A stretch of 64,000 nt of DNA. It comes from Candidatus Treponema caballi. Lineage in GTDB: Bacteria > Spirochaetota > Spirochaetia > Treponematales > Treponemataceae. The notes beneath the pieces were generated by a model. That model made no database searches and had not been told where the DNA came from. It was given only the letters and a program-made list of their open reading frames with translations. The DNA lies in the NCBI GenBank assembly GCA_018066285.1, contig JAGHRS010000003.1, positions 1 through 64,000 on the forward strand, read 5' to 3'. Positions 23,152 to 24,627 of this stretch are shown here, in pieces. How positions within the stretch are numbered: the stretch's first letter is position 1; the number at the start of each line of letters is the position of its first letter. Position numbers and translations under genes: made by a program.

Positions 23152-23991
23152 TTATGCGACGTATGCTTCCAAACGGCAGCTGCGGGTTGGATGCTGCAGG
23201 CGGCGGATTGCTTTCTTCTCAATCTGGCGGATTCTCTCCTTTGTCAGATCGAAACGGTCACCAACTTCCTTAAGGGAAAGAGCCTCGCGTCCATCAAGAC
23301 CAAATCTGAAACGGATGACCTCAGCTTCTTTAGGAGTAAGCGTTTCAAGGACATCATCAATGTCTTCTTTCATTGAACCAGAAATGGCATTTTCTTCAGG
23401 ATTTGAATACATCGTATCCTCAATAAACTCGCCAATAGTAGCGCTTTCAGAATCATTATGGCGTACAGATGCATCAAGAGAAACCATCTCACGTGCAACA
23501 TTCAGGATATCGCGGATATGGCCCGAATCCATATCAAGAATTTCAGCAATCTCTGCTATTTCTTCTTCATCTGTTCTGTTACCGGTAATGACTTTGCGTG
23601 TCTTTTCAATCTGGACAAGCTCATTTGCACGGTTAAGAGGAAGACGGATCATGCGGGATTTCTCACAGACAGCCTTCAGAATTGCCTGGCGGATCCACCA
23701 GACCGCATAAGAAATAAAGTGATAGCCCTTATCAACATCAAAACGGTCAATTGCAGTAAGAAGGCCAATATTTCCCTCACTGATAAGATCTGTCAGATCC
23801 AGCCCGTGATTCTGGTATTTCTTCGCAATCTTTACGACGAAGCGCAGGTTTGCTTTTACGATACGGTCCTTTGCTTCCTTATCACCAGCTTTTGCACGAA
23901 TTGCAAGCTCATTTTCTTCTTCGCGTGTAAGAAGTGGAATCTTGTTGATTTCTTTGAGGTACATTGCTAAAACTGTGTCATTCTGTGTCAT
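23152..23991 (-). CDS. Group 2 (RpoS-like) sigma-70 factor
   Basis: The 279-aa sigma factor has region 1.2 (AMYLKEINKIPLLTREEENE), region 2 (RFVVKIAKKY, DLISEGNIGLLTAIDRFD, YAVWWIRQAI), region 3 and region 4 (SLKEVGDRFDLTKERIRQIE). It lacks region 1.1 and the long non-conserved insert of a primary RpoD, so I class it as group 2, RpoS-like; the exact orthology is not certain. SD AGGAG precedes the ATG. Upstream, a perfect -24/-12 element (24046-24062) indicates transcription by sigma-54, so this factor is probably the second step of a sigma cascade. It is divergent from groES. Confidence 0.88.
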   Translation of the reverse strand: MTQNDTVLAMYLKEINKIPLLTREEENELAIRAKAGDKEAKDRIVKANLRFVVKIAKKYQNHGLDLTDLISEGNIGLLTAIDRFDVDKGYHFISYAVWWIRQAILKAVCEKSRMIRLPLNRANELVQIEKTRKVITGNRTDEEEIAEIAEILDMDSGHIRDILNVAREMVSLDASVRHNDSESATIGEFIEDTMYSNPEENAISGSMKEDIDDVLETLTPKEAEVIRFRFGLDGREALSLKEVGDRFDLTKERIRQIEKKAIRRLQHPTRSCRLEAYVA

Positions 23992-24045
23992 TTTTACACT
24001 CTCCTAACTTAGGGATACAGACCGTAACGTCTACGCAAATATAAT

Positions 24046-24062
24046 TGCAAGTATCGTGCCAA
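24046..24062 (-). promoter_or_regulatory. Sigma-54 (-24/-12) promoter
   Basis: The minus strand reads TTGGCACGATACTTGCA. This matches the RpoN consensus TGGCAC-N5-TTGC at every defined position, with GG (24060-24059) and GC (24048-24047) exactly 10 nt apart. Predicted start is near 24035, giving a leader of about 45 nt to the sigma gene ATG at 23991. I noticed no other perfect match while reading the window. Confidence 0.85.
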
Positions 24063-24270: not shown

Positions 24271-24327
24271 TGAGTTAAATTGACACAGTTGTCTGAAGGT
24301 CGTTCAGAATTGAGTCATTTTGACACA
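24271..24327 (+). repeat. Two 17-bp direct repeats upstream of groES
   Basis: TGAGTTAAATTGACACA (24271-24287) and TGAGTCATTTTGACACA (24311-24327) match at 14 of 17 positions and start exactly 40 bp apart, close to four helical turns. Each contains TTGACA, but neither has a good -10 at normal spacing. They may be activator or repressor sites. No CIRCE element is present. Confidence 0.65.
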
Positions 24328-24360: not shown

Positions 24361-24627
24361 ATGAAGGTTACACCATTAGCAGACAGAGTTCTTGTAAAGA
24401 CAGAAAAGACAGAATCAAAGACTGCAAGCGGAATTATCATTCCAGATACAGCACAGGAAAAGACACAGATTGCAACAGTCATTGCAATTGGCGATGATAA
24501 AGAAAAAATCAAGGTAAAGGTCGGCGATCGTGTCATGTACGACAAGTACGCCGGAACAAACGTAAAGATTGATGGTGAAGACCATCTTATTCTGAAAGCT
24601 CAGGATATTATCGCTACAATCGGCTGA
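24361..24627 (+). CDS. groES: Co-chaperonin GroES
   Basis: The 88-aa lid of the GroEL cage, usual length about 95. It begins [13 protein letters not shown], has the mobile-loop region [15 protein letters not shown] and the core [11 protein letters not shown], and ends in [15 protein letters not shown] is placed 6 nt before the ATG at 24361, which settles the start; the frame is open to 24280 but lacks homology. groEL is not adjacent: a leftward lipoprotein gene follows. The groES operon is therefore split in this organism. Confidence 0.95.

Follow-up and report, generated by a model that had tools for sequence, protein, structure and literature searches.

Tandem dyads and a conserved -24/-12 element upstream of a sigma-70-family gene in Candidatus Treponema caballi suggest an old, stress-linked sigma cascade in the Spirochaetia

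The window, by which we mean the whole 64,000-nucleotide stretch of Candidatus Treponema caballi DNA analysed here (positions 1 to 64,000 of contig JAGHRS010000003.1), belongs to a 2.9-Mb assembly that is 99.8% complete. On its minus strand lies a gene for a sigma-70-family factor, preceded by a -24/-12 element and, farther upstream, by a pair of palindromic dyads, beyond which groES is transcribed divergently. The features of this locus are as follows.

23152..23991, minus strand: sigma-70-family gene (family A) for a protein of 279 aa with regions 1.2, 2, 3 and 4
24046..24062, minus strand: sigma-54 (-24/-12) promoter TTGGCACGATACTTGCA, identified by its full consensus match and its conservation in orthologues
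24035, minus strand: predicted transcription start, about 12 nt past the GC of the -12 element, placed from geometry
24271..24287, no strand assigned: proximal enhancer-type dyad TGTGTCAATTTAACTCA, 40 bp from the distal dyad
24311..24327, no strand assigned: distal enhancer-type dyad TGTGTCAAAATGACTCA (minus-strand reading), forming a tandem pair with 40-bp spacing
23984..24000, no strand assigned: third dyad-like match AGTGTAAAAATGACACA, spanning the start codon of the sigma gene
24361..24627, plus strand: groES, the divergent neighbour adjoining the sigma gene, given for context

Regions 1.2, 2, 3 and 4 were recognised in the 279-residue protein, the domain content of a candidate group 2 sigma-70 factor, and position together with similarity identifies the gene as the orthologue of Treponema pallidum TP1012 and Treponema denticola TDE0937. 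Here, a 1.1-Mb genome in the same bacterial family as the window genome is presumed to be that of T. pallidum, and genome G049 is taken, from its gene positions, to be T. denticola ATCC 35405. The curated equivalog models that fit the window protein best are RpoD models, all of them under cut-off. The protein also falls under the cut-off of the proteobacterial RpoS model (TIGR02394), with 258.9 versus 378.7 bits. In function it would resemble proteobacterial RpoS and RpoH, as a stress-response sigma factor, but neither the RpoS nor the RpoH model reaches its cut-off with this protein, and the RpoD models score best.

The -24/-12 element agrees with YTGGCACG-N4-TTGCW at all defined positions, with the GG at 24060/24059 and the GC at 24048/24047; sites were scored with weights based on the published consensus. 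At sigma-54 promoters, transcription begins about 12 nt past the GC of the -12 element. An earlier note on this DNA had described a perfect sigma-54 promoter 55 nt from a sigma-70 gene. Both the perfect match and the sigma-70-family gene downstream are borne out, with the distance corrected to 54 nt from the element to the ATG at 23991. The same note had named the absence of rpoN as a result that would refute its reading, and this is ruled out, as the gene is intact in the window genome and encodes a protein of 473 residues with AID, CBD and DBD domains. Because each of the family's 124 good genomes also has rpoN, its loss offered no contrast there and was abandoned as a natural control; the gene occurs in nearly all of the phylum as well.

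A motif match alone is weak evidence, because the motif is not in excess genome-wide. At no more than one mismatch, the genome holds 160 matches versus 177 for the reversed pattern; within the window, 57 matches at no more than two mismatches compare with 76 in shuffles, so that motif counts were dropped as evidence and the case is carried by position and conservation. With regard to position, pattern searches, through which the regulon of the genome was assessed, find the exact TGGCAC-N5-TTGC eight times in 2.9 Mb, five times inside open reading frames and three times outside. Each of the latter three stands 50-60 nt before a gene, namely the window sigma gene and the following two:

C5:114768-115589: second sigma-70 gene, P0002 (family B), behind a perfect sigma-54 site
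L010 1299-2008 (G000:C46): hsp20, preceded by four dyads and a perfect sigma-54 site

With regard to conservation, orthologues were scored as carrying the site when it reached a score of at least 12 within 250 nt upstream. Such a site occupies the corresponding place in 93 of the 96 orthologues of the class sample (63/64 from the same family and 30/32 from other families), while the upstream regions otherwise diverge. Among controls, RpoD paralogues carry it in one case out of 23, and dinucleotide shuffles of the family A groups do so in at most 0.7%. The rival reading that the element is a chance motif, with the gene read from an ordinary sigma-70 promoter, can point to the flat motif counts but is contradicted by this conservation and by the paralogues, and we leave it scarcely any probability. 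In the rest of the phylum, 11 of 31 orthologues have the site. In the tree, the orthologues that lack it include a well-supported early branch (L213, L210, L230, L231, L215, L226 and L234), and the sigma-54 wiring is therefore confined to one part of the family tree. In family f10 (G362 and G426) the match to RpoN is very weak (5e-11 and 8e-13), and L260, the sole family A locus examined in that family, lacks a sigma-54 site, possibly a joint loss.

Comparison of the orthologous upstream regions, a check proposed in the earlier note, finds the site throughout the treponemes. At the T. pallidum locus it reads ATGGCATGATATTTGCT, and in T. denticola it has TTAG for TTGG at -24, a substitution, also found in one close relative, that would normally weaken the element. 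TTAG in place of the nearly invariant TTGG was noticed at the sigma genes of T. denticola-like genomes and of one other family (the variants are L385 2889-2905, L386 945-961, L154, L370, L371 and L382). In the T. denticola-like genomes, RpoN also scores lower in its DNA-binding domain, which may reflect co-evolution with TTAG.

The tandem dyads were first seen when upstream regions were aligned, after which a matrix was made for TGTGTCA-WWW-TGACACA. Measured from the -24 GG, their centres in the window lie about 219 and 259 nt farther upstream. Of the 126 loci that bear the site, 116 have a pair above the 95% control, and in 103 of these the spacing between centres is exactly 40 bp. A held-out matrix, trained on the window's family only and with spacings of 20 to 79 permitted, passes in 38 of the 41 loci from other families, 32 of them with a spacing of 40. 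Across the window genome, nine dyads occur at no more than two mismatches (two for the reversed control), three of them at the window sigma gene and four before hsp20. Judged from these comparisons, the two upstream dyads are a probable enhancer; the third match, at 23984-24000, is possibly an autoregulatory site or a chance occurrence. The arrangement is reminiscent of NtrC-type tandem enhancers, with a palindrome pair, separated by a whole number of helical turns, ahead of a -24/-12 promoter and, in the same systems, a Fis-type HTH activator with receiver and AAA+ domains. It differs from them in the site itself (TGTGTCA-N3-TGACACA), in the fixed 40-bp spacing and in its targets, which are not nitrogen genes but a sigma gene and the gene of a small heat-shock protein.

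In roughly half of the loci, as in the window, the dyads occupy an intergenic region shared with groES, and they could be an operator of divergent groES, or of a repressor, unconnected with sigma-54 activation. The pair is nevertheless not a groES element, because 51 of the 57 loci without groES nearby retain it. Dyads are also found before the sigma-54 sites of hsp20, at unrelated places, and the conserved pairs are placed ahead of the -24/-12 element rather than over it. We consider an operator role of this kind very unlikely. A probable enhancer remains the preferred reading, and the same architecture of dyads followed by a sigma-54 site is found at hsp20 not only in the window genome but also in G012, G004 and T. 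denticola. In the case of G049, dyads and a sigma-54-like site are present at the sigma gene and again at hsp20. The hsp20 dyads of the window genome are spaced 23-27 bp in a row upstream of the sigma-54 site, more densely than at the sigma gene.

The search for sigma-54 activators, likewise proposed earlier, returned three strong genes in the window genome:

L034 (G000:C63): receiver-AAA+-Fis HTH protein with GAFTGA, following a histidine kinase gene
L033: GAF-AAA+ protein with GAFTDA and a sensory GAF domain, adjoining an S1-domain gene
L035 1048-2244: truncated protein with GAFTNA and no HTH match, set aside

L035 falls with L303 and L307 in a clade of shortened Treponemataceae sigma-54 activators that lack a DNA-binding domain, some of them with altered GAFTGA loops. 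The genome thus holds both the upstream dyads and a complete activator (GAFTGA, AAA+), a putative dyad-binding protein. L034 shares its REC-AAA+-Fis architecture and a clade (support 1.000) with Borrelia Rrp2, and when eight genomes and T. denticola were compared, the L034 clade was the sole activator common to all that bear dyads. The recognition helix of L034-type proteins ends in HRKL or HRKI in dyad-bearing genomes, in YLKL in T. pallidum and in HNKI in Borrelia; no dyads are found at the sigma promoters of the latter two. This co-occurrence in about eight genomes suggests that the Rrp2-type regulator binds the dyads, and L034 is the most likely activator of the window promoter. The G012 Rrp2-type regulator (L293 1075-2418) has GSFSGA in place of GAFTGA in the loop that contacts sigma-54.

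Our first idea had been that the GAF-type activator binds the dyads. In such a scheme the cascade would stand, with the L033 type at the enhancer and the Rrp2 type serving only the second sigma gene. L033 does have GAFTDA and a sensory domain, and in T. pallidum the L033 type is missing along with the dyads of the sigma gene. This idea was weakened, however, by G012 and G394, which have strong dyad pairs yet no L033-type activator at E<=1e-20, and by the change in the recognition helix of the Rrp2 type, which tracks the loss of dyads. We now think it unlikely, although the L033 type may bind the dyads in genomes that encode it, and prefer the Rrp2-type regulator as the binder.

Expression data for T. 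denticola bear on what the circuit might do. In a published array study, TDE0937 is up 2.8-fold in heat, 21.8-fold in oxygen and 14.0-fold in osmotic downshift, and the HSP20 gene TDE1029 is up 9.5-, 8.5- and 6.7-fold, respectively (PMC2965109). Both are counted there among the core stress genes of the species, and TDE0937 is put forward by the authors as a stress regulator. That study did not test sigma-54, and its accessible portion contains no link of TDE0937 to sigma-54, an enhancer or a cascade (PMC2965109). TDE0937 is a close point of comparison for the window gene, of which it is the orthologue; a dyad pair and a sigma-54-like site stand upstream of it, and it is induced together with HSP20 in the same arrays. 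It differs in the TTAG of its -24 element. On the strength of these data, a stress role would be expected for the window sigma gene as well. In T. denticola, the kinase Hpk2 has an oxygen-sensing PAS domain, and its partner Rrp2 is predicted to act on sigma-54 (PMC12070737), which fits the oxygen response of TDE0937.

The earlier note had called the window gene RpoS-like and compared it with the RpoN-RpoS cascade that controls host adaptation in Borrelia. The site of the second sigma-70 gene, TTGGCACAAATTTTGCA, is 50 nt before the ATG (L004 1500-2391; G000:C5:114702-115589). A sigma-54 site is present at 47 of 49 family B loci, with no dyads seen upstream at loci of this family. Since the family B gene and the window gene both stand behind sigma-54 sites, there are two such sigma genes in one genome. 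In a tree of 111 sequences, Borrelia RpoS joins family B at a split with support of 100/99, and family A takes in the window gene together with its T. pallidum orthologue. Gene order agrees. The Borrelia order is flgI-flgJ-rpoS (PMC1976401), and flgJ is directly upstream both of Borrelia rpoS and of eight family B loci (L341, L343, L350, L352, L361, L377, L378 and L383), which come from several families. The window sigma gene has groES as its neighbour, with no flgJ directly upstream. The tree and the flgJ linkage together identify the C5 gene as the orthologue of Borrelia RpoS, and they rule out the window gene, our first candidate for that part, even though it and Borrelia rpoS both carry the site.

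A direct counterpart of the Borrelia cascade, with the same sigma gene and the same wiring, would have in its favor that Borrelia RpoS has a sigma-54 site at equal distance and that the window genome encodes an Rrp2 orthologue. It is refuted as orthology by the 100/99 split and the flgJ linkage, and is further opposed by the window genome having its own family B gene behind sigma-54 and by the lack of dyads at family B loci; we regard it as highly improbable. What the two systems share is a sigma-54 promoter (about 60 nt before the gene in Borrelia burgdorferi) ahead of a sigma-70-family gene, an orthologous Rrp2-type regulator and RpoN. They differ in that the window gene belongs to family A and not B, with the true RpoS orthologue elsewhere in the genome, and in that the window architecture is common to hsp20, with a stress role rather than surface lipoproteins in prospect. 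They differ also in the tandem-dyad enhancer of the window gene, whereas Borrelia Rrp2 reportedly works with no enhancer and does not bind the region ahead of rpoS (PMC1976401). Because TDE0937 behaves as a core stress sigma factor, the host-adaptation reading is not carried over, and stress control is the better reading for the window sigma gene. The proposal of a Borrelia-like sigma cascade in the Treponema lineage thus survives sequence tests in its wiring, and fails in the choice of gene and in the extension to host adaptation.

Taking the explanation as a whole, we consider it probable that a true sigma-54 promoter at 24062-24046 opens a sigma cascade, and we infer that sigma-54 itself transcribes the window sigma gene. 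A stress signal would render an NtrC-type enhancer-binding protein active, most likely the Rrp2-type L034, which would bind the two dyads 219-259 nt upstream and loop to RNA polymerase-sigma-54 at 24062-24046, melting the promoter. The sigma-70-family factor made from 23991-23152 would then steer polymerase to stress genes, with the dyads and sigma-54 site at hsp20 driving that gene likewise. The C5 sigma gene, orthologue of Borrelia RpoS, would be expressed from its sigma-54 promoter without dyads. The cascade seems to be genuine and very old, predating the genus by far, and in the window it looks like a stress arm and not the RpoS arm of Borrelia. On balance we lean toward the view that, ancestrally in the class Spirochaetia, one Rrp2-type regulator and sigma-54 ran a sigma relay with two arms. 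Arm A would comprise the window gene, driven by an enhancer together with hsp20 in general stress, and arm B the RpoS type, in which no enhancer is seen. Only B would remain in Borrelia, redirected to host adaptation, and only A in T. pallidum, with the enhancer lost; the window treponeme would have both. In the searchable literature, which excludes most subscription papers, there is no description of a second, stress-linked arm, although earlier promoter predictions for TP1012 or TDE0937 are possible.

If correct, the known but unexplained core stress sigma gene of T. denticola gains a promoter, an enhancer and a candidate sensor system. It also predicts the means by which TP1012 is turned on, in a syphilis agent that has few sigma factors. 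Borrelia Rrp2 may need no enhancer because its inherited promoter comes from the arm in which none is seen. The sigma-54-to-RpoS relay, treated as a speciality of the Lyme spirochete, would here be one arm of a much older circuit.
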